Source: Cyclobacteriaceae bacterium (GTDB lineage: Bacteria; Bacteroidota; Bacteroidia; Cytophagales; Cyclobacteriaceae). Taken from it: DNA of 33,571 bases. The position numbers and the translations under genes were made by a program. The stretch spans positions 1-33,571 of the forward strand of contig JAHEGY010000045.1 of NCBI GenBank assembly GCA_024644875.1, in the 5' to 3' direction. The notes beneath the pieces are model-generated. The model worked only from the letters and a program-made list of their open reading frames with translations, made no database searches and had not been told where the DNA came from. Positions within the stretch are counted from its first letter, which is position 1; each line of letters starts with the position of its first letter. Below are positions 3,941 through 28,485 of this stretch, piece after piece.

Positions 3941-3970
3941 CCTTCGTTTTTTTTTATAATTATACTTGTT

Positions 3971-6583: not shown

Positions 6584-6830
6584 TATTCCTTCTAGAGTAT
6601 TTGAAATCAATATTTATATAAAAAAGTGAAAGTTCGGAATATGCTTATCATAAAAATCAGTAACCGAAATTTTTATTAAAAAATATTACAAAGAGATACA
6701 ATGTAAATTTAAAATAAATAATATTTAAACGCAGAACTGGTATAATATATATTTTGGAATTTCAAATGCAACATATACTTTTAAGATTTAATATCGATAC
6801 TTTCACGGGATATTGTATAACTTGAAAATC

Positions 6831-8408
6831 ATGAAGCGTTTTATCATTATTTATTGCCTGACTCACCTGTTTTCTTATTGCCATCCTCCTTCAGATCCGG
6901 GTGAGCGGCGACCAAATATTTTATTTGCCATTGCGGATGATGCATCCTTCCCACATATGGGTGCATATGGTACGAATTGGGTAAAAACACCTGCTTTTGA
7001 CCGTGTTGCCCGCGAAGGTATCCTCTTTATGAATTGCTATACACCGAACGCAAAATGTGCTCCTTCCCGATCCTGTATCCTCACTGGCCGTAATTCCTGG
7101 CAACTGGAGGAAGCCGCCAACCACTGGCCGTTCTTCCCTCTGAAATTTAAGACCTACGCTGAATCATTAAGTGAGAACGGATATTTTGTCGGCTATACAG
7201 CAAAAGGATGGGGACCCGGCATCCCGGGAGAAATTGATGGAAAAAAACGCCAGCTTACCGGCATCCCTTTTAATGATCATACACTGGAAGCACCAGCAAA
7301 ATTCATTAATTCAAATGATTATGCTGCTAATTTCAAAGCCTTTTTGGAATCAAGACCCGATGAAAAGCCCTTCTGCTTCTGGTACGGAAGTACGGAGCCC
7401 CACAGAGCCTATGAATTTAAGGCAGGTATTAAATATGGAGGTAAGTCGATTGAGGAGATAAAAGAAGTACCTCCTTTCTGGCCGGAAGTGGACAGCATCA
7501 AGGTGGATATCCTGGACTATGCGTATGAAATTGAGTGGTTTGACCAGCACCTCCAGGAAATGCTGGCCTTACTTGAAGAAAAGGGAGAATTGGATAATAC
7601 CCTTGTTGTTGTAACCGCTGATAATGGAATGCCCTTTCCAAGGGTAAAAGGACAGGTTTATGAATATTCCAACCATCTGCCACTGGCGATAATGTGGAAA
7701 GATGGCATTAATAATCCTGGACGTACGGTAGAAGATTTTGTGAATTTCATTGACTTTGCCCCTACATTCCTTGATCTGGCAGGAATTCCAGAAACAATGT
7801 CAGGCATGGCAGCCATAGAAGGAACTAGTCTGACCGACATTTTTAACTCAAAGAATGATGGTCAGGTTAATCCGGCTAGAAATTTTGTGCTGCTTGGCAA
7901 GGAAAAACACGATGTCGGTCGCCCCGGTGATGTGGGCTATCCCGTCAGGGGAATTATTAAAGATGGTTACCTTTACCTGAGGAATTTTAAAACAGACCGC
8001 TGGCCGGCTGGCAATCCGGAAACCGGGTATCTTAATACAGATGGGAGTCCAACAAAAACAGTAATTCTAAATGATAGAAGAAATAAAGGTGAAAGCGAAT
8101 ACTGGCAATTGAATTTTGGGAGGCGTATAGAAGAAGAATTATATAATATTAAAGAAGATCCTTACTGCCTAAACAACCTGGCTCTGAATCTAAGCTATTC
8201 GGAGATCATGGATAAACTTAAATTGGATATGGCCAGCAAACTGGAAGATCAGGAGGATCCCAGGATGGCAGGAAATGGAGATATCTTCGACAGTTATCTT
8301 TACTCCAATGAGGCAGACCAGAATTTCTATGAAAGATTCATGGCCGGCGAGGAAGTTCAGGCCGGGTGGGTTAATGAAAGCGACTTTGAGAAAGAAAACA
8401 TTGACTGA
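6831..8408 (+). CDS. Sulfatase, heparan N-sulfatase (sulfamidase)-like, S1 family
   Basis: A 525-aa exported sulfatase of the alkaline phosphatase superfamily, starting at the ATG at 6831; a TTG 18 bp upstream would only lengthen the basic N-terminus. A hydrophobic signal ([17 protein letters not shown]) is present; the FSYC site is a poor lipobox, so lipidation is uncertain. Asp36-Asp37 (ADD) bind calcium and Cys76 in [12 protein letters not shown] is the residue converted to formylglycine. STEPHRAYE and TADNGMP supply the other active-site positions. The phrase [13 protein letters not shown] and the region after the signature resemble sulfamidase-like S1 enzymes that remove N-sulfate from glucosamine. 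It is first in an operon-like row; activation needs a formylglycine-generating or anSME enzyme not seen in this window. Confidence 0.87.
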
Positions 8409-8432
8409 AATGAATCATAAAATCTCATATAA

Positions 8433-8590
8433 AAATTTTAACCTTGTGAATCTAACTCTGTGAATTTAATCCTTTGAATTAAACTCATGAATATAATCTT
8501 CTGAATTAAAATCTATGAATTTAATCGTGTCAATTAAACTCTGTGAACTAAATACTATGAATTTAACCCTGTGAATTTAACCTTGTGAAA
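8433..8590. repeat. Tandem array of 14-bp degenerate repeats, about 11 copies
   Basis: The gap between the sulfatase and the next gene is filled by imperfect direct repeats of the form TGTGAATTTAACCC. The TGA core begins at 8447, 8461, 8475, 8488, 8502, 8516, 8530 (as TCA), 8544, 8558, 8572 and 8586, so the step is 14 bp every time except one of 13. The last copy supplies the GTG start codon (8585) of the downstream gene. Each unit has a start-like GTG or ATG, and most have a TAA; since 14 is not a multiple of 3, no long frame can run through it. Confidence 0.9.
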
Positions 8591-11365: not shown

Positions 11366-11457
11366 TAAATCAGTATATATTCTCTTTCACATTTTTAAGC
11401 AATTGTTTTAAATTACCGGCCTGTTTGGATGTTGCTTTTTTAATAAAACGTATTAGA

Positions 11458-13002
11458 ATGAGAATCTTTCCATATTTAATAATAGGATTTCTGGTTTTTG
11501 GATGCACTTCAAAACCCGTTGAAACTGTTCAAAAAAGACCCAACATCGTTTTTATCATGTCAGACGATCATGCCTACCAGGCAATCAGTGCCTTTGGTCA
11601 TGGCCTTATTCAGACTCCGGGCATCGACCGCCTGGCCAAAGAAGGTGTTATGTTTGAAAATTCCTTTGTCACGAATTCCATTTGCGCCCCGAGCCGGGCT
11701 GTTTTACTGACCGGGAAGCACAGTCACCTGAATGGTGTTTTGGATAACCTCCTCTCATTTGACGGCTCCCAGCAAACTTTCCCTAAACTATTGCAGAACG
11801 CTGGATATGAAACAGCCATGGTGGGCAAGTGGCACCTGAAGTCCACACCAACAGGATTTGATTATTTCAATATTCTGAGAGGACAGGGAGAGTATTATAA
11901 TCCTTTCTTTATAGGTGAGAAAGATACTGTTCAGATCGAAGGATATGTAACAGATATAACCACTGACATTGCAATTGACTGGTTAAAATCGAGAAATGAT
12001 GACGAAAGTCCATTCTGTCTTTTACTTCATCACAAAGCTCCTCATCGTAACTGGATGCCGAATTTAAAACATTTATCCCTGTTTGACGGCGAGGATCTCC
12101 CCGTACCGGAAAATTATTTTGATGATTATAGAACCAGGTCTGCCGCAGCTGCGGAACAGGCTATGGAAGTGGCCCGGGATATGAGAGATCAGTGGGACCT
12201 GAAAGTTTTACCTGATGATCCGAATGTAGATAACTGGGCTGATAAGGGTTATGCATGGCATTACGGGAAACTGCTTACTGATGAACAAAAGGAGGTCTGG
12301 GATGCATTTTATAATCCCAGGAATGAAATCTATACCAGTGGTACCATGACTGAGGAGGAAACAGCCATTTGGAAATACCAGCGGTATATTAAAGATTACC
12401 TGCGCTGTATTGCCTCTGTGGATGAAAATGTCGGACGAGTGCTTGATGTACTTGATGAAATGAATTTAAGTGAGAATACCCTAGTTGTTTATACTTCAGA
12501 CCAGGGATTTTACCTGGGTGAGCACGGCTGGTTTGATAAAAGATTCATGTATGAAGAATCCTTCAGAATGCCTCTCCTGATGCGTTTTCCTGGCATGACG
12601 GTTGGAGGGAAAATAGTGACACAACTGGTACAGAACCTGGATTTTGCCCCCACATTCCTGGACCTGGCCGGTGTGGAGATACCGGAGGACATGCAGGGAT
12701 TATCCCTTCTCCCACTATTAAAGGAAGAAGATCCGGGTGATTTAAGAGAATCACTGTATTATCATTATTATGAGTACCCGGGAGCACATAGTGTAAAAAG
12801 ACACTATGGTATCCGTAATGATCAATATAAACTGATCCATTTCTACCACGACATCGATGCCTGGGAGTTGTATGATTTGAAGAACGACCCTTCCGAGATG
12901 AATAATCTCATCGAAAATCCCGATTATGAAGGACTCATCCAATCATTAAAAGCGGAATTGAGAGAATTGCAGGTTCAATATAAAGACACAATAAGTATTT
13001 AA
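11458..13002 (+). CDS. Sulfatase lipoprotein, N-acetylglucosamine-6-sulfatase-like, S1 family
   Basis: A 514-aa lipoprotein from the ATG at 11458; an upstream TTG would add 11 residues before the signal. The signal MRIFPYLIIGFLVFGC has lipobox VFGC (Cys16). Asp36-Asp37 (SDDHA), Cys76 in SICAPSRAVLLTGKHSH (formylglycine site), MVGKWHLK, HHKAPHRNWMP and TSDQGFYLGEHGW give a complete sulfatase active site. The HKAPHRNW stretch and the overall order resemble the S1_11 group, which includes GlcNAc-6-O-sulfatases from gut Bacteroides. It is 92 bp after the propeller fusion and 12 bp before the isomerase gene. 6-O-sulfated glucosamine or GlcNAc is the likely substrate, by family resemblance. Confidence 0.87.
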   Translation: MRIFPYLIIGFLVFGCTSKPVETVQKRPNIVFIMSDDHAYQAISAFGHGLIQTPGIDRLAKEGVMFENSFVTNSICAPSRAVLLTGKHSHLNGVLDNLLSFDGSQQTFPKLLQNAGYETAMVGKWHLKSTPTGFDYFNILRGQGEYYNPFFIGEKDTVQIEGYVTDITTDIAIDWLKSRNDDESPFCLLLHHKAPHRNWMPNLKHLSLFDGEDLPVPENYFDDYRTRSAAAAEQAMEVARDMRDQWDLKVLPDDPNVDNWADKGYAWHYGKLLTDEQKEVWDAFYNPRNEIYTSGTMTEEETAIWKYQRYIKDYLRCIASVDENVGRVLDVLDEMNLSENTLVVYTSDQGFYLGEHGWFDKRFMYEESFRMPLLMRFPGMTVGGKIVTQLVQNLDFAPTFLDLAGVEIPEDMQGLSLLPLLKEEDPGDLRESLYYHYYEYPGAHSVKRHYGIRNDQYKLIHFYHDIDAWELYDLKNDPSEMNNLIENPDYEGLIQSLKAELRELQVQYKDTISI

Positions 13003-13014
13003 AGAAGATATATT

Positions 13015-13935
13015 ATGCATGATTTAGGTTTTGTTAGCGCCATTATGGCAGATAAAAGCTTTGAAGAGGTTATCACCTTTGCCAGCAAGAAAAAGTTCAA
13101 ATGCGTTGAGATTATGTGCTGGCCTGTAGGCAAAGCTGAAAGACGATATGCCGGGGTTACACATATCAATGTGGAGGAACTGGATGATGCCAGGATCCAT
13201 TATATCAATAATTTCCTGATGGAAAAAGGGATATATATCTCCGGATTGGGATATTACCCAAACCCATTGGATCCGGATGAAGAAACTTCTGAAAAGGCTT
13301 TTGAACATATAAAAAAGGTGATTGCTGCTGCATCAAAGCTGGGAATACCAGTTGTAAATACGTTTATCGGTAGAGATCCGAAGAAAAGTATAGAAGATAA
13401 TTTGAAATTATTCGAGGATAAATGGCCGCCAATTATTGAATATGCTGATAGCATGGGCATAAATATCGGTATTGAGAATTGTCCAATGATCTTCACAAAG
13501 GACGAATGGCCTGGAGGCAAAAACCTGGCCACAACACCTGTCATCTGGGATAAGATGTTTGAGATCATTCCAAATAAGAATTTTGGATTAAACTATGATC
13601 CCTCACATCTGGTATGGCAGCAAATGGATGAGATACAGCCAATATTTAATTACAAGGACCGTCTGCACCATATACATCTAAAAGATGTAAAGTTATACAA
13701 AGATAAATTGGACAAGCATGGAATTATGGCCTATCCTTTGCGATACCATTCACCGAAGCTTCCTGGCCTGGGTGATGTACGATGGTCTGACTTTTTCTCA
13801 GCTTTATCCAGTGTCGGTTATCGTGGCCCATGTTGCATTGAAGTGGAAGACCGGGCTTTTGAAGAGTCCGAGACCGACATACAGAATTCAATACTCATCA
13901 GCCGGAATTTTTTGAGACAGTTCTTGGTGCTGTAA
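13015..13935 (+). CDS. Sugar phosphate isomerase/epimerase-like TIM-barrel protein (cytoplasmic)
   Basis: A 306-aa protein of the xylose isomerase-like/AP endonuclease 2 superfamily. Likely metal ligands are Glu154 in IGIENCPM, Asp195 and His198 in NYDPSHL, His221 and Asp224 in HIHLKD, and Glu276 in CIEVED. No signal peptide is present, so it acts inside the cell. It starts 12 bp after the sulfatase stop and ends the operon before the terminator at 13995. Members of this superfamily isomerise or epimerise sugars, keto-sugars or inositols; the specific reaction cannot be fixed, but the location suggests it handles the sugar released by the upstream exported enzymes. Confidence 0.9.
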   Translation: MHDLGFVSAIMADKSFEEVITFASKKKFKCVEIMCWPVGKAERRYAGVTHINVEELDDARIHYINNFLMEKGIYISGLGYYPNPLDPDEETSEKAFEHIKKVIAAASKLGIPVVNTFIGRDPKKSIEDNLKLFEDKWPPIIEYADSMGINIGIENCPMIFTKDEWPGGKNLATTPVIWDKMFEIIPNKNFGLNYDPSHLVWQQMDEIQPIFNYKDRLHHIHLKDVKLYKDKLDKHGIMAYPLRYHSPKLPGLGDVRWSDFFSALSSVGYRGPCCIEVEDRAFEESETDIQNSILISRNFLRQFLVL

Positions 13936-13994
13936 AAAATATTTATATAACTATTTCAAGATTAATTCAGGAACTTAAAGCCAATAGTCCTTAT

Positions 13995-14022
13995 AAAATG
14001 CACTCTTCAGTGCATTTTTTTT
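13995..14022 (+). terminator. Rho-independent terminator of the sulfatase operon
   Basis: AAAATGCACT (13995-14004), loop CTTC, AGTGCATTTT (14009-14018) gives a perfect 10-bp stem followed by a T run. The A-rich left arm could also let it work on the other strand, but no gene faces it from that side. Confidence 0.85.
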
Positions 14023-14207
14023 ATTCATTTTAAAATTCAATTATCAAAATATATATTATTGATAATCAAGTATATATGGAAATTATAAAGTAGAATAAAA
14101 CTGATAGAAAATAATTATTTCTAAATTGAATTGAAATATAACAATTTCAGGGGTTTCCTTTCGTTAAATAATCGTATATAAAAGTACAAAACAATAAACA
14201 AGGTAGT
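14023..14207. other. AT-rich spacer with a short inverted repeat
   Basis: ATTATCAA at 14040-14047 and TTGATAAT at 14059-14066 form a perfect 8-bp inverted repeat about 140 bp upstream of the small gene. It may be an operator or a chance palindrome in AT-rich DNA. No clear promoter was found. Confidence 0.35.
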
Positions 14208-14381
14208 ATGAAAGCGTATGAATTTTTATTAGAAAAAGGAATCAACAAAGTACACCAACCCAGCAAAAGATATAACCTAAGCGTTCACGAGCTAATCACA
14301 TTTTTAGAGGAATTTGCACAAAGAGAGAAAAAGGTATTTTACAATCCTTTTGAGATAAGGATGTATAAAAATCTATCTTAA
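14208..14381 (+). CDS. Small unrecognised 57-aa protein
   Basis: ATG 14208 to TAA 14379-14381 encodes 57 residues, starting MKAYEFLLEKGINKVHQPSK and ending EIRMYKNLS. It is soluble, charged and predicted helical (HELITFLEEFAQREKK) with no signal or membrane segment. It reads as a real protein rather than random AT-rich translation: acidic and basic residues alternate, and a strong terminator follows about 110 bp later with no other gene between. I do not recognise the family. Confidence 0.55.
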   Translation: MKAYEFLLEKGINKVHQPSKRYNLSVHELITFLEEFAQREKKVFYNPFEIRMYKNLS

Positions 14382-14491
14382 ACAATGTAGGGCCCGATCA
14401 ACCAGAACTTAATAAGAAAAAGATCAGCGATAATTAGTATAAGCTTTGTTTTAAAACGATTAAAGCCAAATTGTCAAAAACGATAGCTATG

Positions 14492-14523
14492 AATCCCGCC
14501 TAACCAGCGGGATTTTCTTTTTA
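14492..14523 (+). terminator. Rho-independent terminator after the small gene
   Basis: AATCCCGC (14492-14499), loop of 7 nt, GCGGGATT (14507-14514) gives a GC-rich perfect 8-bp stem followed by TTCTTTTTATTT. It ends a transcript that can only come from the 57-codon gene or from a non-coding RNA in 14208-14490. Confidence 0.85.
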
Positions 14524-14643
14524 TTTCCTATTCCACTTTATTTTGCCTCTTGAAATCAATTATTTGTCCTATTACATCCATGAGGTTGATTTCTTAGGTC
14601 TTTTTAGGTTGTATTCTGTATCTTTACTTTCATTTTTTTGATC

Positions 14644-15720
14644 ATGAAAGCACTTATACTTGAAACTCTGGATATCCGGCCATTGAATGTTGGCCTTACA
14701 GATACTTTCACTATTTCACAAGGCAGTGTGCAGGAAGTACAAAGCCTTCTGGTCTCCTTAACATTGGATAACGGGATGAAAGGCTATGGAGAGATCACCC
14801 CTTTTCCCGAACTTGCGGGGGAGACCAAAGAGGTCTGCATAGAAAGATTTAATGAAGTTTCACCTGAGCTGATCGGCAAATCATTAAATAATATTCGTGC
14901 TTTGAGTCATATACTCGAAGAAGCACTTCCTGGCAGTCCATCAGTTAAATGTGGAATAGAGATCAGCATGCTGGATGCGTTGACACGGACCCTGGAAACA
15001 CCAATGTGGTCTTATTTTGGGGGCTTGAATGAGGAAATCCTTCAGACTGATATTACCATACCTATTCTTTCACATGAGAGGTCGCTGGAATTAGCCGATA
15101 AATGGGTAAAAAAAGGCTTCCGAACCCTAAAGATCAAGGTAGGTTCCGATCATGACAAGGAAATCAATCTTATATCGGAAATTAACAAAAAATATCCTGA
15201 TATTCAGTTCATTATAGATGCCAATCAGGCATTTGAAGAAAACCAAACGCTTGAATTTACGAGGGAATTACTGGCAAAGGATTGTGATATTATTCTCCTG
15301 GAACAACCATTGAATCGTTACGATTTTATTGGTATGGGGAGGTTAAAAAAACTATTAAATGTACCCATCGCTGCTGATGAATCCGTGTTTTCCAGGCAGG
15401 ACCTTCAGCAGGTGATTAAATATAACTCGGCTGATGTTGTGAACCTGAAAATAATGAAAACAGGGGTATTCAATGCCCTTGATATTTGCTCAACCGCAAG
15501 ATCAATGGGCTATGAATTGATGATCGGTGGAATGGTGGAAACCAGGATAGCTATGGGCTGCTCTGTTGCCATAGCCATGGGATATGCTCCTATAAAATAT
15601 ATCGATCTGGATACGCCCCTTTTATTATCATCAGACCCTGTCATTGGCGGATACAGCTATTGCGGACCAGACATTATGTCCTGGGACACTCCAGGCCTGG
15701 GGATGGAACCATTAATTTAG
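14644..15720 (+). CDS. Dipeptide epimerase (L-Ala-D/L-Glu epimerase type), enolase superfamily
   Basis: A 358-aa cytoplasmic enzyme from the ATG at 14644. It has the capping domain and the (beta/alpha)7-beta barrel of muconate lactonizing enzyme-type proteins. Lys163-x-Lys165 (LKIKVGSD) and Lys269 (NLKIMKTG) are the two-base catalytic lysines. Asp192 (IDANQ), Glu220 (LEQPL) and Asp245 (AADES) are the Mg ligands. These positions and spacings agree closely with Bacillus YkfB. Such enzymes epimerise L-Ala-D-Glu from murein peptides, although Bacteroidota homologues vary in dipeptide preference. It ends one base before the convergent gene's stop. Confidence 0.9.
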   Translation: MKALILETLDIRPLNVGLTDTFTISQGSVQEVQSLLVSLTLDNGMKGYGEITPFPELAGETKEVCIERFNEVSPELIGKSLNNIRALSHILEEALPGSPSVKCGIEISMLDALTRTLETPMWSYFGGLNEEILQTDITIPILSHERSLELADKWVKKGFRTLKIKVGSDHDKEINLISEINKKYPDIQFIIDANQAFEENQTLEFTRELLAKDCDIILLEQPLNRYDFIGMGRLKKLLNVPIAADESVFSRQDLQQVIKYNSADVVNLKIMKTGVFNALDICSTARSMGYELMIGGMVETRIAMGCSVAIAMGYAPIKYIDLDTPLLLSSDPVIGGYSYCGPDIMSWDTPGLGMEPLI

Positions 15721-15721
15721 C

Positions 15722-16627
15722 TTATCCCTTAAAGATCTTCTGCATACGCTTTGAGATATCCTCCAGTCTTTTTCTGTCCCCTCCCGGTACTTCTGCCGAA
15801 GCCCAACCATTGTACCCGATATCATCCAGTGCTTCCATGACGGCCGGCCAGTTGCAATCTCCTTCCATCAGTTCAACCTCAAAGCCCTTCCATATCCCTT
15901 CTTCGGATTGCTTTTTCCTGCTATATTCCTTTGCATCGATTCGCATAATCCTTTTATCCAGTATGTGTATCCATTGTTCAGGCCATCCATATCGTACTAT
16001 ATTTCCTACATCAAAATACCAACCTACCATTTTACTATCCAGTTCATCGATATACCTGGCCGCTTCAATTGGACTGATCAGGAAATTATTCCAGACATTT
16101 TCAATTGCTATTTTTATTCCGGTTTCCTCGGCATAGGGTATTAATTTCCTGATCTCTTCCTGGGAACGTTTATAAGCATCATCATAGGAAACTTCGTTAT
16201 TGACTACTCCGGGAACAAGCAATACAGTGGTGCCTCCATATGCCTTACAATCGTTTAGGGAGGTTTTCATAGCTTCCACACATTGGGCCCTAACCTTCTC
16301 ATCCGGATGGGACATGGGGCTTTTCCAGTGAACCGAGTTAATAACACCGGGTACTTCAAGCCCTGTTTTTTTACTTGCCTCTATAACCTCATCATTATTA
16401 AGATTATTCGGACTATCCATTTCAACACCATCAAATCCGATATCCTTCAGCAGCTGGAATTTTTCCAATACCGACATGTTTCCCTTTACCATTCCATATT
16501 TAAGACATATTTTGATATCAGGCTTTGCAAATGCAGATTTGTTTGTTGCACCTGTGATCGATAAGGGATTCACCATCGACAGTCCTACTAATCCGGCACT
16601 TGCTTTAATGAATTCTTTGCGTTGCAT
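15722..16627 (-). CDS. Exported sugar isomerase/epimerase-like TIM-barrel protein with Tat-like signal
   Basis: A 301-aa protein starting MQRKEFIKASAGLVGLSM, a Tat-like signal with Arg-Lys in place of the twin Arg, followed by a xylose isomerase-like TIM barrel. Candidate metal ligands are Glu176 (IAIENVWN), Asp206 (WYFDVGN), Asp231 (MRIDAKE) and Glu279 (ASAEVPGG). It lies 22 bp downstream of a Tat-exported Gfo/Idh/MocA gene and is surely cotranscribed with it. Such pairs occur in pathways that oxidise glycosides at C3 and then cleave or isomerise the keto-sugar in the periplasm. The exact reaction is unknown. Confidence 0.88.
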   Translation of the reverse strand: MQRKEFIKASAGLVGLSMVNPLSITGATNKSAFAKPDIKICLKYGMVKGNMSVLEKFQLLKDIGFDGVEMDSPNNLNNDEVIEASKKTGLEVPGVINSVHWKSPMSHPDEKVRAQCVEAMKTSLNDCKAYGGTTVLLVPGVVNNEVSYDDAYKRSQEEIRKLIPYAEETGIKIAIENVWNNFLISPIEAARYIDELDSKMVGWYFDVGNIVRYGWPEQWIHILDKRIMRIDAKEYSRKKQSEEGIWKGFEVELMEGDCNWPAVMEALDDIGYNGWASAEVPGGDRKRLEDISKRMQKIFKG

Positions 16628-16649
16628 ATTATTTTCTTTTTTTGAATTA

Positions 16650-17954
16650 CTATTTAAATTTTGTCATTCCGGGCATAGCTATCGGAGGACCTTCGTATTC
16701 GAGATCCCAGGAGTATTTATCAATTGCAGGCCCCAGGATCTCTTTGGATTTTAAGGCATCCTCATAAGAAATGGTCTGACCGGTATAAGCTGCCATACGT
16801 CCCATAATGGCCAGCATATTACTCTGGGCCATCCAATCCCCATCATTCATCAGGTTTCCAGACCTGATGGAAGCAAATAGTTCATCATGTTCCTGCTGGT
16901 ACATGTCGTTGCCATCGCCCCTGTAACGCCATGGGTTTTCGCCCGTTATCTCATCGATTCTTTTTATCACATCGATAATGGCTTTTCCTTTTGTACCCCA
17001 TACTTCGACATGGTATGAACGTGAACAGTTCTTCTGTTGCCTGGTGATATGGAAAGCTTTTGCCCCGTTCGCATATTCAAATTCTACAGCAAAATGGTCA
17101 TATATATTTCCATAGATCTCCTCTATCCTTACCTGACGCCCTCCAGTCCCCATAGCGGATTTTGGTTGCATATCATTCATGGCCCATGATCCCATATCAA
17201 TACTATGAATGGCTTGTTCTACAATATGATCACCTGATAGCCAATTATAGTAATACCAATTACGCATCTGTTTGGTCATTTGAGTCCAGCCCTCTTCGTA
17301 CGGGATAGACCATAAGGTTCCTGTATTGTATGTACTATACACCGCTTGTACTTCTCCTATTGCTCCATCATGTATTCTTTGAAAAACCTCACGTTTAGGG
17401 GTATGATACCTCCAGCAGAAACCGGAAACAAGTGATATTTTCTTCTCTTTTGCAATCTGAGCCGCAGCGATTACCCTTCGAATACCTTGGGCATCTACAG
17501 CCATTGGTTTTTCACAAAACACATGCTTGCCTGCTGCGATGGCAGCCTCCAACATGGCTGGCCTGAAACTTGGGGGTGTGGTCAGTAAAACCACGTCAAT
17601 ATCGGAAGCCAATACCTTTTTATAGGCATCAAATCCAACAAATTGATGGGATGCATCAACCTGTACCTGATCTCCCCTTTCTTTCTTCAGATTTTCTAGA
17701 CTTTTAGATATACGATCCTCGAAAGCATCTCCCATGGCTGTCAGTACCACATTATTATCTGCTTTTAAAGCCTGATTTGCTGCACCAGTTCCCCTGCCAC
17801 CACAGCCGATCACTCCCACTTTAAGCGTATCGTTATTCATGGCAAATGCTGATTTGCCTGAAATAAAATTCATAGCCAGGGCTGATCCTGCAGCCACTGA
17901 TCCTGTCGTTTTTAAAAACCTTCTTCTCGACGACTTTAGTTCACTGTTTTTCAT
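16650..17954 (-). CDS. Tat-exported Gfo/Idh/MocA family oxidoreductase
   Basis: A 434-aa protein. The signal SSRRRFLKTTGSVAAGSALA is a classic twin-arginine signal, ending near SAFA (residue 38). The Rossmann motif GCGGRGTG is at 50-57 and CEKPMA has Glu148-Lys149-Pro150. The export of a folded protein with bound NAD(P) explains the Tat route, as in glucose-fructose oxidoreductase. The gene is the first of a two-gene operon with the TIM-barrel protein and diverges from the SDR gene across 128 bp. A periplasmic sugar or glycoside oxidoreductase with tightly bound cofactor is the best reading. Confidence 0.93.
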   Translation of the reverse strand: MKNSELKSSRRRFLKTTGSVAAGSALAMNFISGKSAFAMNNDTLKVGVIGCGGRGTGAANQALKADNNVVLTAMGDAFEDRISKSLENLKKERGDQVQVDASHQFVGFDAYKKVLASDIDVVLLTTPPSFRPAMLEAAIAAGKHVFCEKPMAVDAQGIRRVIAAAQIAKEKKISLVSGFCWRYHTPKREVFQRIHDGAIGEVQAVYSTYNTGTLWSIPYEEGWTQMTKQMRNWYYYNWLSGDHIVEQAIHSIDMGSWAMNDMQPKSAMGTGGRQVRIEEIYGNIYDHFAVEFEYANGAKAFHITRQQKNCSRSYHVEVWGTKGKAIIDVIKRIDEITGENPWRYRGDGNDMYQQEHDELFASIRSGNLMNDGDWMAQSNMLAIMGRMAAYTGQTISYEDALKSKEILGPAIDKYSWDLEYEGPPIAMPGMTKFK

Positions 17955-21132: not shown

Positions 21133-22497
21133 TTATTTTAAGTTTATTTCACTTTTTCCCTTAGGAAGTTTAAAGCACAAAATGGATTCTTTCTTGTCAG
21201 CATAATACGTTGAATCGCTTAATTCCAAAACAGAATTTTTCTTTATTAATGTGATGGTTTTGCTCCCGGTCAATAATTCAGCACCTTTAATTTTTTTATC
21301 AATCTTGATGGTAAACTCTTTTGTTGAGAATGGAGCATCAAATAATATTCTGCTCTTTTCCGCCGAAATTCCGGTCAGTTTTTTGGCAGCCCAATATCTG
21401 GCGATCTCACTAAGAGTCATCCAATAAAGATGGTCATATTTTTTGTGCAACCTTCCAACAACAGTTTTCAATACATTAAATCCAATTTTATCGCCATTAT
21501 AATAAATACCAGGCCAATGACAGACCATAATGGCTGGCTCCTGTTTTTCAATCACTTCCACCATTCTTCCAGAGGAAAGGTCAGGGCTTATGAACTTATC
21601 CGGGTCCCCGGGCTTCAGGCCATCCCATCCGCCGAACCAGTCTCCTGTACAACCGATTATATGAACCGAACATCGCGGATCATTTGTTCCAATCCCGCTA
21701 ACATGAAACAGTTCCGGCTCAACACTCTTTCCAGGATCGGTATAAATATTTCGGAAAAAATGAGGTACTTCGGTTTGATAGACATCCTTCTGGGCTTCGA
21801 GTGTTCCCAGGGCCAGGTTCTCCATATTTTTGCTTCCAAAACCACCTGGGGTAGTGATCCCTTCACAGTATAAACCGGCTTCCTTAAGCACATTCAGTGC
21901 ATAGCCAATATAATCAGCCAGTTCATCAGCACTTTTTGTCTGGCTCCACTCCCAGTTTTCCATATATTCCGGAGTAGCAGAAGGATAAGGCACACCGGTT
22001 TTCGTGTTGATCACCCGGGTATGACTGATCATCTCCGGATGGATATCCCAGTTCGGGGTCATCGTATCTCTTACCAATTTCAGACTTTCTTCGAGGTCAG
22101 TTTTAGACCAGCCTGGTATAAACCTGTGCAGCCACCCTGTGCAAGCCGGGAATGGCACCATGCTGTATTTCCCTTTTACCCCGTTCTCACCACACCAGTC
22201 ACGGAATTCCCGGACAAAATCGTCGGGTATCTCGCGAGGCAGTCTCGTCCAATCCTGAAGATATTGCTGTGGAAATACCTCCGCAAATTGAGGAATCCCA
22301 AAATAGGCCATGTTGACAAGGGCAGTAGAATCATCTATGATAAAACTCACCGGTACCCTGTTTCTTGGATTTAATATTTTAACTTCTGATGCCATATTGT
22401 TAGCTAATAAAGGATTGGAAATACCTGCTGAAATTAATGCAGAGGATGCTAATCCCTTTCGCATGAAATCCCGGCGGGAATTGCTTTTTGGTTTCAT
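21133..22497 (-). CDS. Tat-exported polysaccharide deacetylase-like protein
   Basis: A 454-aa protein starting with a Tat signal, SNSRRDFMRKGLASSALIS. The mature part opens PVSFIIDDST, which resembles NodB motif 1 with paired Asp, and later has HPEMISHTRV and ITTPGGFGSKN, which may stand for the His metal motif and motif 3. These are divergent from classical CE4 motifs, so deacetylase activity is not proven; a catalytically altered NodB-like barrel is possible. A short beta-rich C-terminus (KEFTIKIDKKIKGAELLTG) suggests an added Ig-like module. It is first in a two-gene operon with the CBM9-like protein. Confidence 0.6.
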   Translation of the reverse strand: MKPKSNSRRDFMRKGLASSALISAGISNPLLANNMASEVKILNPRNRVPVSFIIDDSTALVNMAYFGIPQFAEVFPQQYLQDWTRLPREIPDDFVREFRDWCGENGVKGKYSMVPFPACTGWLHRFIPGWSKTDLEESLKLVRDTMTPNWDIHPEMISHTRVINTKTGVPYPSATPEYMENWEWSQTKSADELADYIGYALNVLKEAGLYCEGITTPGGFGSKNMENLALGTLEAQKDVYQTEVPHFFRNIYTDPGKSVEPELFHVSGIGTNDPRCSVHIIGCTGDWFGGWDGLKPGDPDKFISPDLSSGRMVEVIEKQEPAIMVCHWPGIYYNGDKIGFNVLKTVVGRLHKKYDHLYWMTLSEIARYWAAKKLTGISAEKSRILFDAPFSTKEFTIKIDKKIKGAELLTGSKTITLIKKNSVLELSDSTYYADKKESILCFKLPKGKSEINLK

Positions 22498-22722: not shown

Positions 22723-23457
22723 TTATTTCTTTAAGGATCCTTTATTTAACAGATCATCCGGAATAGGAACGTCGAATTGAATTTCTGTAACAACGAACTC
22801 AGTTCCTTTTCCGTCCTTCAGCATATCCTTGAAAGTCATTTTTCTGGGGTACCATCTTCCCTGAACCCGAACCACATCACTCATTTCCATGCGTTTCAAT
22901 AATTTTCCACTTTTGGCAAACAAGTCCTGTTTCATAGGTATATATTTCTCCTTGTCGACCCAGATCTTTCTTGAATCATACGCGAGATCATCCGTTTTAG
23001 CCTTAAGGTCGATGACCCAGCAGGAAGCGCCATTGAAATCCTCTTCAGCATTTACCACGGCATCATAGCTTTCCTGCATCTTTTTATCATCCAGCATGTC
23101 TTCATAAGACAGATCGGATCCCATAACAGATTGCCTCAGCATATGCCCGCTAATCTTAATGGTACGGTCTGTAGAGGGAGAATACATCCATAACAAATCC
23201 TCAAGCTTTAACATTTTGGTACCTTTTTCCCGGGCCGGTGCCAGATATTCAGTGTAAGAATTATTATCTCCCTCCGACCAGGTTTTCGACTCTATATTCC
23301 GGCTACCTCTCCGGCCATGAATAACCATAGTTGAGGTAAATATCCTGGAGTCGGAGGACATATTCTCATCAATCTTTTCCAGCAATTCAGATCCATCCGG
23401 GTACTGGGCAAATGATATAGTTGATACAAATAAGAATCCCGTGAGTATATTTTTCAT
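22723..23457 (-). CDS. LolA-like outer membrane lipoprotein-sorting protein
   Basis: A 244-aa exported protein (signal MKNILTGFLFVSTISFAQ). The fold features are those of the LolA-like group with long beta strands: STMVIHGRRGSRNIESKTW, EYLAPAREKGTKMLKL, LLWMYSPSTDRTIKISGHM and RKIWVDKEKYIPMKQDLF. Canonical LolA carries lipoproteins or other lipids across the periplasm. It is the last gene of the TetR operon, 47 bp after the second permease, which makes it the likely periplasmic partner of that transporter. The cargo is unknown. Confidence 0.87.
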   Translation of the reverse strand: MKNILTGFLFVSTISFAQYPDGSELLEKIDENMSSDSRIFTSTMVIHGRRGSRNIESKTWSEGDNNSYTEYLAPAREKGTKMLKLEDLLWMYSPSTDRTIKISGHMLRQSVMGSDLSYEDMLDDKKMQESYDAVVNAEEDFNGASCWVIDLKAKTDDLAYDSRKIWVDKEKYIPMKQDLFAKSGKLLKRMEMSDVVRVQGRWYPRKMTFKDMLKDGKGTEFVVTEIQFDVPIPDDLLNKGSLKK

Positions 23458-23504
23458 TTTTTTAAAATTTTCAGTTCTTAAATATTACCTGATTTTTTCC
23501 CTCC

Positions 23505-24779
23505 TCAGGTTTCCAATTCTTTAAATAAATCGGCCGTTTTCCGTCTGTAGATGCCTATTCCACTCAATGCCGTACCCAGAACAGTCGAGAACAAACCTGG
23601 AACAAAGCCAATATAATAGGCTACTGGTGTTATATGCGCTCTATAAACATTGGGTATCATCATGGTTGTCTTTTGAGTAAACTGACTTACGTCAAATCCA
23701 TATACCTGCAGATATAATGCAAATCCCAGGCCAATAATCGACCCGATAAAAGATCCGGCAATACCAATCGCTACGGACTCTGATATCATAGATCTGAACA
23801 CATGCCCTTTATTTTCTCCAATGGCGAGACGAAGTCCATACTCCCCATATCTCCTTATTCCACCCAGCAGGCCGGCATTCCATAGCACAATTGACATCGC
23901 CAGAACGAAAATGAATACAATAATTCCAATCATTGCCTCGGAATAACTTAACATGGCATCCAATTGGTTCTGTTGTCTGAGTGATTGCATTATTGGTGAA
24001 AATTCATCGGTTACATCCAGGAAACGGGCGTTATAATCCTTTACCACCAGCTGAGCTTGCTCATCCTCATAAATCCCATCGTCAAAATATCCAACGATCT
24101 CACTGGCCGCATCCACCATATCCAATGCATATTGTGCATCAGCAAGGTCGATAATAATTGCTCCTCTGTCCATTGCAGACATCCCGAATTCCACCATTCC
24201 CACAACCGTAAAGTTCTGCATGGCCATACTTCCGTACATGGTGGAACTGATGAGGGTGACCGGATCGCCTAATTTCACTTCCAGATTATCTGCAAATTCC
24301 TTACTTATCAAAATCTCACCCGATTCATTGGGAATTTCTCCTGCCATCAGGGAGGTTTGAATATTCATCCGGTCTATTTCCCCTGAATTAGTTGAAAAAA
24401 GATCAATTCCGAGGCCCATTACGGTTCCTTGTGATCTGGTCTCACCATTTTCATCCGGAGCATCAAGCAATCCGCCAAAACGGATCCGGGTCGTAAAATT
24501 CATATCCGAAAAAATGGATTCTGCCTCAGCAATTATATCTTCAGCATTCATTAAAGCCAGATCATTTGGTGATTGGTCAATGTTTTCCAGATAGGACTGT
24601 GACATGATCTTAACATGACCGGTTGAGAACCGGGCATTCACATCGATCATATCACTGAATATCCCAGTAACCCAGCAATGTATTAAAACGGTCAGCGACA
24701 CCCCTACCGTTACCGTAAGTATCGGGAACATACTTCGGTTTCTGTCCCTGATCAATCCTTTTATTAAAAACTTAATCAT
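23505..24779 (-). CDS. ABC transporter permease, FtsX/MacB/LolC-E type (second)
   Basis: A 424-aa permease. One membrane segment near the N-terminus (residues 17-40) is followed by a large periplasmic domain of about 230 residues, then three segments in the FtsX-like C-terminal block (MIGIIVFIFVLAMSIVLWNA; SVAIGIAGSFIGSIIGLGF; VAYYIGFVPGLFSTVLG). The four-segment layout is that of LolCDE and MacB, which move substrate out of the membrane rather than through a channel. Its start overlaps the previous gene's stop by four bases (24776-24779), indicating translational coupling and a heterodimer with that permease. Confidence 0.92.
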   Translation of the reverse strand: MIKFLIKGLIRDRNRSMFPILTVTVGVSLTVLIHCWVTGIFSDMIDVNARFSTGHVKIMSQSYLENIDQSPNDLALMNAEDIIAEAESIFSDMNFTTRIRFGGLLDAPDENGETRSQGTVMGLGIDLFSTNSGEIDRMNIQTSLMAGEIPNESGEILISKEFADNLEVKLGDPVTLISSTMYGSMAMQNFTVVGMVEFGMSAMDRGAIIIDLADAQYALDMVDAASEIVGYFDDGIYEDEQAQLVVKDYNARFLDVTDEFSPIMQSLRQQNQLDAMLSYSEAMIGIIVFIFVLAMSIVLWNAGLLGGIRRYGEYGLRLAIGENKGHVFRSMISESVAIGIAGSFIGSIIGLGFALYLQVYGFDVSQFTQKTTMMIPNVYRAHITPVAYYIGFVPGLFSTVLGTALSGIGIYRRKTADLFKELET

Positions 24780-25936
24780 TGTATTTTTCCTTTTATAGCA
24801 TCCGTTGGATTCATTTTGGCTATTTTCCGGGCAGGTATGTAGCTTACGATAGTAGCCGTTAGCATCACAATTATGATTGTCCCCAGGATCAGTCCCAGGC
24901 TGTATGAAGGATAGATCACTTCACTGATGGCAATTCCAAAATCGTCAGGTTCGTAGGGCATGGCATAACCCACCTTATATTGCATGATCAACAGAGGAAC
25001 TCCATATACTGCACCGACCAGCGCTGCCAGTACACTGTTCATACCCCCTTCAATTGTAAACAATTTCACAACCTGTTTCCGGGTCATCCCCAGGGCAATA
25101 AAGGTGCCGATTTCCTTCTGTCTTCTGAAAATGGATAATATCTGTGTATCAAATATTGCCAGCATTGCCAGCAGTAGCAGCAGGATGTACATGATGGAAC
25201 CTCCCACACTCTTCTGTTTAATGATCTGGTCAAGATCCGCGAGCAGGAAATCCATGGATTTAAAATCCCAGCCTGAAATATTCATATTGTTCAATGATTC
25301 CGACCCCGATACAATCAACGTGGCTTCCCCTTCGGATTGTGTCATTTGTTGAAGGTCTTCCAGTGTCAACCACACATTTCCCTGGTCAACAGAAGGTACA
25401 TCCGTACTGAATATTCCGGCAATACGAACTTCCGTAGCATCAAAAGTACCATTTGAATCTCTCCAGCGTAAAGTGAGATAATCCCCTTCTTTCAGTTTAT
25501 TATTAGTCGCCATCCGTTTTCCTACCAATACCGGGATCTCCCCGTTCTCCTTGATCAGCCTATCGGTAGGCAACCTAAGCACTTGTTGGTCTTTAGCAAT
25601 GCCCTTGAGTATTACACCCTGGATACGGCCTTCAGGGTATATGGTTCCCTGAGTGATCAGTATAGGAGCTACATTTCCCCCAGCCAGGTTATCAGGAATA
25701 CTTCCATGGCTGTCTTCCAGCGTAAACGGATCGTAAGAATCGTATGCTTCATGCCAGTATTGGCCCTGTGCGATTTCCCATGCGATCATGTCCCTTCGAG
25801 CTTGAACATTCCATCCATCGATAAGTCCCTGATACCAGATTATGATCACATATGAAAATGACAAAACAATTACATTGAGCCAGGTTCGTAATCCTGCGCC
25901 AAGTAAGTTTCTCAAAGCAAGTTTTATAGACATCAT
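24776..25936 (-). CDS. ABC transporter permease, FtsX/MacB/LolC-E type (first)
   Basis: A 386-aa permease with an N-terminal membrane segment (WLNVIVLSFSYVIIIW), a periplasmic domain, and a C-terminal FtsX-like block containing IMYILLLLLAMLAIFDTQIL, the loop RRQKEIGTFIALGMTRKQVV and two further segments. The EIGTFIALGMT loop is the hallmark coupling region contacting the ATPase. It starts 10 bp after the ATPase gene and overlaps the second permease. The two permeases differ clearly in sequence, so this is a hetero-complex like LolC/LolE. Confidence 0.92.
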   Translation of the reverse strand: MMSIKLALRNLLGAGLRTWLNVIVLSFSYVIIIWYQGLIDGWNVQARRDMIAWEIAQGQYWHEAYDSYDPFTLEDSHGSIPDNLAGGNVAPILITQGTIYPEGRIQGVILKGIAKDQQVLRLPTDRLIKENGEIPVLVGKRMATNNKLKEGDYLTLRWRDSNGTFDATEVRIAGIFSTDVPSVDQGNVWLTLEDLQQMTQSEGEATLIVSGSESLNNMNISGWDFKSMDFLLADLDQIIKQKSVGGSIMYILLLLLAMLAIFDTQILSIFRRQKEIGTFIALGMTRKQVVKLFTIEGGMNSVLAALVGAVYGVPLLIMQYKVGYAMPYEPDDFGIAISEVIYPSYSLGLILGTIIIVMLTATIVSYIPARKIAKMNPTDAIKGKIQ

Positions 25937-25946
25937 AACCTTAGAT

Positions 25947-26660
25947 TTAGCTTGCTGCTTCCTTTAATTCCATCCAATCATCCTTAACTACTTGACCATC
26001 CTCGAGTCGAATGATCCTTTTCAGGTATGACATCACTTTTTCATCATGCGTCGCAAAAATGAAAGTGGTGTTCAAGTCATTGTTAAGCTTCTCCATAGTC
26101 CTGAGAATATGATGTGAATTCTCAGAATCCAGGTTGGCCGTTGGCTCATCAGCCAATACAAGCTCGGGCTTTTTCACCATAGCCCGGGCTATAGCCACCC
26201 GCTGGCTTTCTCCTCCGGACAGTTGGGCAGGTTTGGATTTGATCTTATCGGTCAGCCCGACCCATTCAATGGCCTCCTGAACTGCTTTTTCCCTTTCCCT
26301 GGCAGGCATTTTGAGCAAAAGCAGGGGGAATTCCACATTTTCATAAACAGTATAAACCGGAAGAAGATTATAAGTTTGAAAAATGAAACCGATATGACCG
26401 TTCCTTAACTGAGCGGCCTGTTTGTGTGATAGGGTACTGATCTTTTTATCAAGAACAGTCGCCTCCCCTTCTGTGGGAACATCCAGAGACCCCAGTATAT
26501 TTAGCAATGTGGTTTTTCCGGAGCCGCTAGGCCCGACAATACCGGTAAATTCACCTTTCGAAAAAGATAAATTGATATCATCAAGTGCAGTAAAAAATCC
26601 TCCGCCTACAGGGAATCTTTTAATGAGGTTATTGATTTCAATGATACTTGATTTTTCCAT
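25947..26660 (-). CDS. ABC transporter ATPase, LolD/MacB-like
   Basis: A 237-aa nucleotide-binding protein with a complete site: Walker A GPSGSGKT at 43-50, Q-loop Gln95, signature [14 protein letters not shown] from 147, Walker B LVLADEP with Asp171-Glu172, and H-loop His205 (FATHD). It belongs to the LolD/MacB/FtsE group that works with FtsX-type permeases. It sits 10 bp upstream of the first permease and 10 bp downstream of the outer-membrane protein, so the ATPase, permeases and envelope partners are made together. Confidence 0.95.
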
Positions 26661-26670
26661 GTCTTATAAA

Positions 26671-27825
26671 TTAATGATTAAATACAAATTGAACCTGGAA
26701 TCCTTTTCCGGTATACAAACTAGTCTCATCGTTGAGGTTCTGGTACAATGTAAAATTATCGGGATTCCAGTATGCCATTATATAGAGGTTGATCCTGTCC
26801 CAGGTCATACCCCAGTTGATAAAATTGTAAAACCCGTTATTTGACCAGTCATAGTAGAATATATAAGTAAGATTGTCAATTATACTTACGGGATAATTGG
26901 CTGATATGGCTGTGAAAGAATTACTTTCCTTACTTTTTAAAAAATCCTCTCCTGTAGCAAACCAAAGCTGTTCAGCCATTACAGTTAATCCGCTTCCTAT
27001 TCCAAAAGTATAATCCAATCCAATATTAAGTAGTTTTTTAGATTTAAGCTCAGAGATTTCAATATCCTGATGGATGAATGATGTCTCAAACCATAATCCT
27101 ACACCTACATCCCATTTCCCATCTAATCCGATACGGTTCTCAGCTGCCTGACCATCAGTTGCAGGAAATCCCATAAACTCATCACTTTCAGTATTAGCAA
27201 TCCTGTGGTGATAGCTGAGTGCTAACTCACCCGTAAATAAAGGAGTTTGTATTCTTCCACCAAATTCCGGAATATTCTTTACTGAGGGAAATAATTCCCA
27301 TCCTTTTGGCTGGTCATTCCCGTAAAGGAACCAAAACCAGATATTTGCATTATTGGAGAAATAATAGCGGCCCAATGCAGCATATACACCTTCTGTCAAT
27401 TGTAGCGGATCCCTCGGATCGATCTGGTCGAACCACATAAGTGGTCTGAGCATCGCTGCTGAACCAAAATTGATCTTCTGGAGGCCTACCCTTACACTGA
27501 ACCGGTTGGATGAGAACCTTACCCAACCACGGAAAAGATCAAACTGGCCGTCCCAATTGACTGAATCACCATTGTAATACATGTATCCGTACATATTCAG
27601 TTGAACTTCCGCGGCCAATGTATACTTTTCTTTAAATATATGTTCATAGTTCAGTTCAGGTATGTATCGTGCACCAATCTGAGATTGAAAATTATCGAAT
27701 GGCTTAGTAACACCCCATGCTACAAGCTGTCCTCTCATACCAAATCCTTTCCCCAGGTCCTGGCTAAACCCTTCGATAACCATTATCAGGATAAGAAGGA
27801 TCAATATGAGGATAAACTGCTTCAT
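26671..27825 (-). CDS. Outer-membrane beta-barrel protein of unknown family
   Basis: A 384-aa protein with a signal peptide (MKQFILILILLILIMVIEGFSQ) and many alternating amphipathic strands rich in Trp, Tyr and Phe, such as LFRGWVRFSSNRFSVRVGLQ and NANIWFWFLYG. It ends in FQVQFVFNH; the last strand is near a terminal aromatic residue, as usual for barrels. It looks like a porin-sized barrel of about 14-18 strands. It lies between the TetR and ATPase genes, 9 and 10 bp from them, so it is likely the outer-membrane component of the transport system. I do not recognise a characterised homologue. Confidence 0.78.
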   Translation of the reverse strand: MKQFILILILLILIMVIEGFSQDLGKGFGMRGQLVAWGVTKPFDNFQSQIGARYIPELNYEHIFKEKYTLAAEVQLNMYGYMYYNGDSVNWDGQFDLFRGWVRFSSNRFSVRVGLQKINFGSAAMLRPLMWFDQIDPRDPLQLTEGVYAALGRYYFSNNANIWFWFLYGNDQPKGWELFPSVKNIPEFGGRIQTPLFTGELALSYHHRIANTESDEFMGFPATDGQAAENRIGLDGKWDVGVGLWFETSFIHQDIEISELKSKKLLNIGLDYTFGIGSGLTVMAEQLWFATGEDFLKSKESNSFTAISANYPVSIIDNLTYIFYYDWSNNGFYNFINWGMTWDRINLYIMAYWNPDNFTLYQNLNDETSLYTGKGFQVQFVFNH

Positions 27826-27834
27826 CGATGTATT

Positions 27835-28431
27835 TTACCTGTTTTCTGCTGGTAGAAGTCCATAAAAAAAGAAATTTGTCAATTCCTTGATCAATTCACC
27901 CGGTTGCTCATACATTCCAACCAGTTTTTCATCGTTAACCATTTCTATCATATGGTTCAGGAAATAGACAATAAACTCTGGTTTGATATCTCTTCTGATA
28001 TCACCTTCCTTCTGCGCCTTAAGATACCAGTCTGTAACAGTACGCAAATTAGAAAGGCGTTGCTCCTGCAGGACCTGGTTCAGTTCAGGATCATTCTGAC
28101 GATGAAAATCCCTGAAAAAGGCCTCACTGATATTTTCAGTCTGTTCAATCTTCAATTCAACAGATTTTCTGATCTTATCAACAAAAGGGATATCTTCGGT
28201 CATGATCTCGTCATATAATCTCAGGGAATATTCAGACATTTCCTTCATGATAAACCGGACAAGATCATTCTTATTCTTAAAATGCTTATAGAAAGTCATC
28301 TTACTCACGCCGGCTTCCTTACAAATTTCCTCGATGCTAACCCTGGTAAATCCATATTGCCAGAACAGGTCCCATGCTTTTTCCACAAGTTGTTGAAGTT
28401 TTTTATTGCCGAAGTCTCTAAAAGGTTTCAT
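27835..28431 (-). CDS. TetR/AcrR family transcriptional regulator
   Basis: A 198-aa regulator. The N-terminal DNA-binding domain spans about residues 10-60 and has the TetR helix-turn-helix VSIEEICKEAGVSKMTFYKH. The C-terminal part is an all-helical ligand-binding domain with no recognisable ligand. It is the first gene of a six-gene operon, 9 bp before the barrel gene, so it almost certainly controls that operon and itself, with an inverted repeat at 28454-28485 as its likely operator. The inducer may be the substance exported. Confidence 0.94.
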   Translation of the reverse strand: MKPFRDFGNKKLQQLVEKAWDLFWQYGFTRVSIEEICKEAGVSKMTFYKHFKNKNDLVRFIMKEMSEYSLRLYDEIMTEDIPFVDKIRKSVELKIEQTENISEAFFRDFHRQNDPELNQVLQEQRLSNLRTVTDWYLKAQKEGDIRRDIKPEFIVYFLNHMIEMVNDEKLVGMYEQPGELIKELTNFFFYGLLPAENR

Positions 28432-28453: not shown

Positions 28454-28485
28454 TACGAATATAGTAATTATTTACTATTATCGTA
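28454..28485. promoter_or_regulatory. Candidate TetR operator (14-bp imperfect inverted repeat)
   Basis: TACGAATATAGTAA (28454-28467), spacer TTAT, then TTACTATTATCGTA (28472-28485). Twelve of 14 positions pair, including the outer TACGA and inner TAGTAA arms. It lies 22 bp upstream of the tetR-type start codon, where a self-repressing regulator would bind. Confidence 0.6.

Follow-up and report, generated by a model that had tools for sequence, protein, structure and literature searches.

The 33,571-nucleotide window studied here, which is the entire contig C34 of a Cyclobacteriaceae genome (5.06 Mb in 254 contigs), carries a six-gene operon on its minus strand. Its open reading frames (ORFs) encode, in order, a TetR-family regulator, an outer-membrane barrel, a LolD-like ATPase of the ATP-binding cassette (ABC) type, two FtsX-type permeases (PermA and PermB) and a LolA-like periplasmic protein. 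We consider it probable that the operon encodes an ABC-driven exporter, switched by its own repressor, that carries a hydrophobic or amphiphilic small molecule or a lipid across the envelope. It is a real, conserved and separately regulated system and would be an ABC-driven version of the exporters of hydrophobic compounds that combine a LolA-fold protein with a barrel; on the best reading, its nearest parallel by analogy would be AmeABCD, a monoterpene exporter driven by a resistance-nodulation-division (RND) pump. The reading as a Lol-type ABC exporter is favored because the order of five of the genes is kept in 50 of 51 related loci, the fold of PermB matches LolE first, and no HlyD or TolC domain is encoded. 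No description of the six-gene operon was found in the open-licence PMC texts searched.

Results

Operon conservation

An earlier note, made from the letters of the DNA, had called the six genes with intergenic gaps of 9, 10, 10, −4 and 47 bp in gene order. The ORF coordinates bear out both the gene limits and the gaps, and Pfam supports the identity of every gene product but the barrel (Table 1). The control region upstream, with its operator, is counted as part of the operon unit. Related loci were collected by scanning the GTDB species collection with a four-row alignment of the barrel. Of the 251 relatives found in this way, the 80 best were retained; they are mostly metagenome-assembled genomes (MAGs) of Bacteroidota, with two from Calditrichota and two from KSB1 (by title), and include the cultured Maribellus maritimus (L102) and Rhodocytophaga aerolata (L104). 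Together with three further relatives they make up 83 loci, and the 51 that extend at least 600 bp before and at least 4.2 kb after the barrel gene are termed testable. The loci were picked by closeness to the query barrel and are silent on more distant ones.

The order barrel-ATPase-PermA-PermB-LolA is kept in 50/51 testable loci. ATPase and PermA genes are present in all 51, PermB and LolA-like genes in 50, and TetR genes in 41. At 40 of the 51 loci all six genes are found in this arrangement, which is therefore not due to chance. The conservation that the note had proposed to look for was found, and the linkage of the barrel to the LolA-like gene, on which its interpretation leaned, is firm (50/51). 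The exception, L028, is without PermB and LolA-like genes and has masked bases in PermA.

Some loci differ around this core. Ten testable loci, L051 and L084 among them, are without a co-directional TetR gene. Divergent TetR-like and outer-membrane-efflux-like genes lie directly upstream of the barrel, in the usual place of TetR, at L046, L051 and L084, and the group includes a HlyD-like gene at L051 and L084 (Pfam assignments are for L051 only). A 23S_rRNA_IVP-like ORF (PF05635, four-helix; Pfam match at L016:6575-6922) lies between operon genes at L016, and BLAST with this copy places such ORFs within the operon, at differing positions, in 4/83 loci (L016, L032, L077 and L092). These ORFs may insert between operon genes without breaking the operon.

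Permeases and ATPase

The AlphaFold2 model of PermB (predicted local distance difference test [pLDDT] score 83.6) has LolE as its best VIA match (9xro_E; Z 27.2, root-mean-square deviation [rmsd] 5.6, 361 aligned), followed by LolC (Z 23.4), HrtB (20.6) and MacB (17.4). The Type VII (Lol/Mac/FtsX) ABC fold is assigned to PermB by this model and to PermA by its FtsX domain only. None of the six operon genes gave a Pfam match to a HlyD/MacA-like or TolC-like domain, and a tripartite pump of the MacAB type was rejected for want of an adaptor and a TolC domain within the operon. MMPL domains, the mark of an HAE3 RND engine, were likewise absent from the operon by Pfam.

When PermB is aligned to E. 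coli LolC, a shorter hairpin, SSTMYGSMAMQNF, falls at the place of the LolC Hook, given as residues 168-178 in PMC10865981. M181 and G183 of the hairpin are present in 53/53 sequences and M185 in 52/53. Identity between PermB and LolC is just 15-17%, so the likeness to the Hook is suggestive only. The hairpin of PermA is of another, charged kind, in which W158, R159 and D166 are present in 50/50 sequences.

The note had set the operon apart from the housekeeping Lol system, and the genome agrees. A housekeeping-type LolA (PF03548, 43.2 bits) is encoded elsewhere, on C128, and the best LolC/E-like permeases are on C215 (210.9 bits) and C3 (169.7 bits); none passes the TIGR02212 lolCE cut-off of 362. 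The permeases of a second operon, described below, come next (148 and 119 bits), compared with 52.5 and 35.3 bits for those of the window in this genome-wide ranking; scored on their own against TIGR02212, the window permeases reach 53.8 (PermA) and 36.5 bits. In a tree of 46 permeases, PermA and PermB each fall in a starred 11-row clade of their own (100/100 each), and the genome's own C3 permease groups with E. coli LolC and LolE (99/95). The tree has several long branches, and the C215 gene was left out of it. On these grounds we rejected a housekeeping Lol function. The ATPase scores 238.9 bits against TIGR02211 (LolD), under the equivalog cut-off of 307.75; this test separates little because no ATPase of the genome passes and that of the window ranks fifth.

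Regulator and operator

The 32-bp palindrome TACGA-N5-GTA-N6-TAC-N5-TCGTA precedes tetR and is exact in the window, where its far end lies 54 bp ahead of the start codon. Leaders of up to 150 bp were available for 66 tetR genes, and 64 were analyzed after two that were too short had been left out. The frame TACG-N24-CGTA occurs in 36/64 leaders, the window's included, and the highest count for any other spacing from 0 to 60 is 8. The consensus, TACGAATnTnGTAnnATnnTACnAnATTCGTA, begins 35 to 68 bp before tetR. None of 834 control ORF leaders contains the exact frame. Sites scoring more than 16 bits against a matrix built from the operators occur in 41/64 leaders, and 9 of the 28 leaders without the exact frame score over the 99% shuffle level. 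In the 1.09 Mb scanned from the 83 loci, 55 sites exceed 16 bits, every one of them at the operon start and none elsewhere; the count at the start is partly circular, since 36 of the leaders served to train the matrix, and the absence elsewhere is not. At 13 loci without a co-directional TetR, the 500 bp ahead of the barrel contain no site, the best score being 3.9. The palindrome is therefore the probable binding site of the operon's own TetR, as judged by comparison of leaders, and the TetR control claimed in the note gains backing from a conserved operator.

In the window, the operator is the only site at up to 3 mismatches (expected 0.06). The 5.06-Mb genome has just two sites with at most 1 mismatch, that of the window and one at C38:868-899; the latter has 1 mismatch, lies between convergent genes, ~200 bp before a 61-aa ORF (1097-1282), and may be a relic or a small target. 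Allowing up to 3 mismatches gives 7 places, but a reversed control pattern gives 29, so the weaker sites carry no meaning. The genome-wide operator scan showed no regulon pointing to a cargo, and the attempt to reach the cargo by this route was abandoned because the second near-exact site gave none. The regulator looks to act locally.

Outer-membrane barrel and LolA-like carrier

Neither Pfam and NCBIfam (E up to 0.1) nor PDB sequences (E up to 10) gave a match to the barrel, and its identity rests on an AlphaFold2 model and fold matches. The model, built from 65 sequences, has 18 strands (pLDDT 89.9), with a long segment between strands 5 and 6 that is rich in invariant residues in the alignment. 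The best VIA match is OccK7 (4frt_B; Z 23.8, rmsd 3.2, 298 aligned), with AlgE (4xnl) at Z 22.3; rows within 1 Z count as tied. Foldseek ranks general porins first. The barrel thus has the 18-strand fold of OprD/Occ channels and AlgE, in fold only, at 5-13% identity.

Pfam gave no useful name for the 65 homologues either; none of them matched PF06980 (DUF1302) at E up to 0.5. By hhalign, the barrel profile matches that of the second-type barrels (97%, E 9e-11, 15% identity), which in turn match barrels beside RND pumps (97%, E 4e-11; 4 near-identical rows only on the RND side). We conclude that the window barrel is probably remote and indirect kin to DUF1302-type barrels, through the second operon type only.

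The LolA-like protein scores 198.8 bits against PF17131, where the Pfam gathering cut-off is 30. By eye, it has a signal-peptide-like N terminus and no lipobox. Relatives with solved structures are 9tp6, 3bk5, 4z48 and 3buu, whose entries give molecule names without a tested function.

Distribution and search for a cargo

The barrel was found in 4/59 relatives, this genome included; the other three share the gene order, one being cut by a contig end. A profile of the 65 barrels matched 14/392 genomes of the phylum, again with this one counted (13 strong matches, one of them in two pieces, and one marginal). A tree of 58 concatenated operons was made by a quick method with a midpoint root, phylum names being taken from MAG titles. 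It places the window in a set of 20 rows, starred, that brings together Calditrichota, KSB1 and Bacteroidota. The window stands next to Calditrichota rows, but not as a starred pair; membership of the 20-row set alone is starred. L016 and L018, from the same family as this genome, fall in the other half. This placement, the patchy presence and the differing flanks suggest that the operon moves horizontally between lineages; several old copies with losses, or mis-binned MAGs, may be the explanation instead.

Flanking genes differ from locus to locus. From 43 loci, 147 were collected (110-1000 aa, up to two per side). A size limit reduced these to 132, with L101-L104 falling out, and two flanking genes of L051 were scanned separately, so that 130 genes from 39 loci were scanned here. 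The 130 genes matched 175 families, none more than 6 times. Among the 25 commonest, glutamine-amidotransferase (6) and asparagine-synthase (5) domains lead, followed by two others (3); the rest occur 2 times each or belong to the glutamine-amidotransferase/asparagine-synthase group. No recurring biosynthetic family emerged, and gene neighbors were set aside as a guide to cargo. The note had thought a dedicated, inducible route for a special lipid, pigment or toxic amphiphile likely. With regard to a lipid or pigment that has a pathway of its own, this was unsupported or overstated, given flanks in which no family exceeds 6 occurrences and which vary between loci, and a presence in 14/392 genomes. 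A portable, inducible exporter or tolerance device fits better than a pigment route, since the neighborhood is cargo-neutral and variable and the operon is patchily present. What survives of the note's interpretation is the separation from Lol, the linkage and the TetR control.

A second operon and the PF17131 class

The operon is not a one-off; it is one branch of a broad class in which a LolA-like protein, an engine and a barrel are encoded together. A second operon of the same genome (C177, 6616-12383) has the order TetR-LolA-PermB-PermA-ATPase-barrel. Pfam names all of its parts except the barrel, and its permeases and LolA-like protein share ~21-29% identity with those of the window.

We sampled 148 genomes of the phylum for PF17131; 92 had a match at E 0.001 and 70 exceeded the family cut-off. 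Flanks were taken for 74 matches of at least 115 bits, this genome's two being left out. A script classed 34 as the second type, 5 as the window type, 7 as other ABC, 11 as RND and 17 as neither, so that 57/74 strong copies adjoin an FtsX-type ABC (46) or RND (11) engine. Two loci scored as neither, L247 and L248, have ABC genes (tblastn missed the carrier); a contig end interrupts L197, another removes the barrel of L188, and the four RND queries were drawn from four of the scored loci. All six RND proteins scanned are MMPL, and the barrel beside one of them is over the DUF1302 cut-off. The LolA-like carrier, often with a related barrel, therefore stays while the engine changes. Within this larger Bacteroidota class, the window operon belongs to a minority branch, and the second version is commoner.

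Two further arrangements were seen. L245-L249 encode an FtsX-type permease, a LolA-like protein and then a putative barrel of 440-460 aa, and four of these five loci also have an ATPase gene close by; similarity to the others is weak. At L234, L235, L239 and L240, distant PF17131 genes adjoin an aldehyde-dehydrogenase-like gene (Pfam: L235 only) with no engine nearby, so PF17131 has other contexts.

Other features of the window and genome

Positions 21133-22497 encode a protein of 454 aa whose N terminus, by eye, is twin-arginine-like; neither Pfam nor NCBIfam gave a match to it at E up to 0.1. Positions 2675-17954 form a glycan-use-like region with sulfatases, a family 2 glycosidase and major facilitator superfamily, sugar-isomerase-like and oxidoreductase genes; no lipid-synthesis gene was found among the eight genes scanned there. 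The genome also encodes a type IX secretion PorP/SprF protein, a marker not known outside Bacteroidota, which together with the named relatives indicates that phylum.

Table 1. Features of the operon, in gene order, with positions in the window
Feature	Position	Strand	Evidence
Operator, 32-bp palindrome, predicted TetR site	28454..28485	.	0 mismatches; conserved frame; specificity controls
TetR-family regulator, first gene, probable autorepressor	27835..28431	-	ORF; TetR_N 4.1e-15; in 41/51 testable loci
Outer-membrane 18-strand barrel; conserved segment 117-146 between strands 5 and 6	26671..27825	-	AlphaFold2 model, fold matches
LolD-like ABC ATPase	25947..26660	-	ABC_tran 9.2e-37; TIGR02211 LolD 4.4e-71
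PermA, FtsX-type permease	24776..25936	-	FtsX 1.3e-15; lolCE TIGR02212 1.5e-14; aligned with 49 homologues
PermB, FtsX-type permease with MacB_PCD periplasmic domain	23505..24779	-	FtsX 6.3e-14; MacB_PCD 4.2e-10; AlphaFold2 model
PermB Met-rich hairpin, conserved, at LolC Hook position	residues 178-190	-	alignment to LolC
LolA-like periplasmic carrier, PF17131	22723..23457	-	PF17131 8.1e-59

Discussion

We propose that TetR, bound to the operator before its own gene, would hold the operon off until a ligand, probably the cargo itself, frees it. By analogy with LolCDE, the ATPase and the two permeases would form a complex that uses ATP to extract a greasy molecule from the inner membrane. A Type VII ABC complex proposed to pull hydrophobic compounds from the inner membrane is YbbAP-TesA (PMC12646458). 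The LolA-like protein would dock on PermB, probably at the hairpin in the Hook position, load the molecule into its greasy cavity and cross the periplasm. Unloading may then occur at the 18-strand barrel, with release into the outer membrane or to the outside, as its constant linkage and the example of AmeABCD suggest.

Several observations weigh against this proposal. The whole-model superposition of PermB is loose (rmsd 5.6), and the fold model covers PermB alone, PermA being assigned by its FtsX domain. No operator site above 16 bits is present in 23/64 leaders. After correction, 15/74 PF17131 loci show neither kind of engine within the flanks examined, so the presence of PF17131 is not enough to define an exporter. 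Compared directly with a DUF1302-type profile, the window barrel gives only a weak match (probability 1.8%, E 0.027, to 4 near-identical rows only). Strand patterns shared among barrels can inflate profile scores, and two other putative barrels beside PF17131 genes (L217 and L242) matched no Pfam family. Finally, barrels of the DUF1302 and OprD/AlgE-like kinds leave the direction of transport unfixed.

Among the alternatives, the operon might maintain a bulk outer-membrane lipid, such as a sphingolipid or ornithine lipid, rather than confer tolerance of a toxic compound. This overlaps in mechanism with the exporter we favor, from which it is set apart by cargo and purpose, and does not exclude it. 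Cargo-neutral flanks would suit a substrate made elsewhere in the genome, and the suggestion that Flavobacterium LolA2/LolB2 serve flexirubin (PMC11885536) counts in its favor. We nevertheless judge it unlikely for an operon that is under a dedicated operator and present in only 14/392 genomes of the phylum and 4/59 relatives. A second line of lipoprotein sorting, in which the barrel would take the place of LolB and insert or surface-expose a subset of lipoproteins, would account for the Lol-type permease fold, the LolD-like ATPase and the LolA-like carrier; a lipoprotein role is discussed as a possibility for the Borrelia BBJ23-29 cluster of Omp85, ABC and LolA-like proteins (PMC13078400). 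It is made rather improbable by the housekeeping LolA and LolC/E-like genes elsewhere, the starred permease clades apart from LolC/E, the lack of a client lipoprotein family standing out in the flanks, the OprD/AlgE-like channel model of the barrel and the patchy presence (14/392).

The barrel raises the question of direction. OprD/Occ channels, its top fold matches, serve uptake, and the operon could in principle import or recycle, the barrel admitting a hydrophobic compound or lipid that the carrier and ABC complex return to the inner membrane in the fashion of Mla. Elsewhere on the contig, most of the genes scanned are glycan-degradation-like, which would suit uptake. In favor, too, is a case from Thalassolituus, in which growth on a long-chain alkane increased an MMPL+LolA-domain protein and a porin-like protein that were interpreted as belonging to its transport (PMC6304351). 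However, the Type VII ABC complexes (LolC/E, MacB, FtsX) with known roles extract, export or transmit force and are not known to import (compare PMC12646458), and no lipid-degrading partner stands out in the flanks. On balance, we hold import to be improbable. An envelope-stress or antibiotic device working by Bce/YtrEF-like mechanotransmission, with an ABC complex that carries nothing across the periplasm, is very unlikely: FtsX-type permeases include such systems, YtrEF and BceAB appear at lower Z in the fold list of PermB, and L046, L051 and L084 have the divergent TetR-like and efflux-like pair upstream, but the steady pairing of these genes with those for a LolA-fold carrier and a barrel speaks against it.

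The export reading may extend beyond this operon. A tentative generalization, which we would not yet call probable, is that Bacteroidota, Calditrichota and KSB1 share a general exporter made of a LolA-fold shuttle and a DUF1302/OprD-like exit barrel with an interchangeable engine, either a Lol-type ABC pair or an MMPL RND pump. It would be a shuttle-based counterpart to the AcrAB-TolC and MacAB-TolC tunnels, here controlled by the 32-bp operator and spreading as a cassette from one lineage to another. The name given to PF17131 proteins is "outer membrane lipoprotein-sorting protein"; if they belong to exporters of hydrophobic compounds, many annotations would be misleading. If the proposal is true, it opens to testing a new route by which toxic or signalling lipids may cross the diderm envelope, and the operator offers a ready reporter with which to screen for the ligand and hence, probably, the cargo. 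The class is common and is without a name in the literature searched.

Comparison with known systems

E. coli LolABCDE shares the permease fold, the LolD-like ATPase and the LolA-fold carrier. The window operon differs from it in having permeases in separate clades, scores under the LolCE and LolD equivalog cut-offs, a barrel and a TetR operator, and no LolB-like gene. Borrelia BBJ23-29 likewise joins a MacB/LolE-like ABC transporter to a LolA-like protein and an outer-membrane barrel; as described in PMC13078400, its permease is homodimeric, its barrel is of the Omp85 type and it includes tetratricopeptide repeat (TPR) proteins. Porphyromonas and Prevotella operons, PG1175-1181 and kin, resemble the window operon in pairing TetR and an inner-membrane pump with a protein of PF17131-type name. 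By description they differ in their MMPL pump and in induction by low iron or hemin, under which these TetR-MMPL-LolA-like operons are strongly raised (PMC10434189, PMC10470040).

The second operon type (34/74 PF17131 loci) has the same six kinds of parts, with barrels linked by profile, but a different gene order and ~21-29% identity, and it is the commoner in the sample. Through it, the DUF1302-type barrels that include that of AmeABCD may be remotely related to the window barrel. AmeABCD of Castellaniella defragrans consists of a DUF1302 barrel, a DUF1329 protein of the LolA superfamily, AmeC and an HAE3 RND pump, and its deletion made cells less tolerant of monoterpenes and increased their accumulation of Nile Red (PMC6394551). 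Set beside it by description, the window operon has an FtsX-type ABC transporter in place of the RND pump and PF17131 in place of DUF1329, whereas AmeABCD has the additional AmeC and lies in a monoterpene gene island. Both would nonetheless bring together an outer-membrane barrel, a LolA-fold periplasmic protein and an inner-membrane extractor in one inducible cassette.

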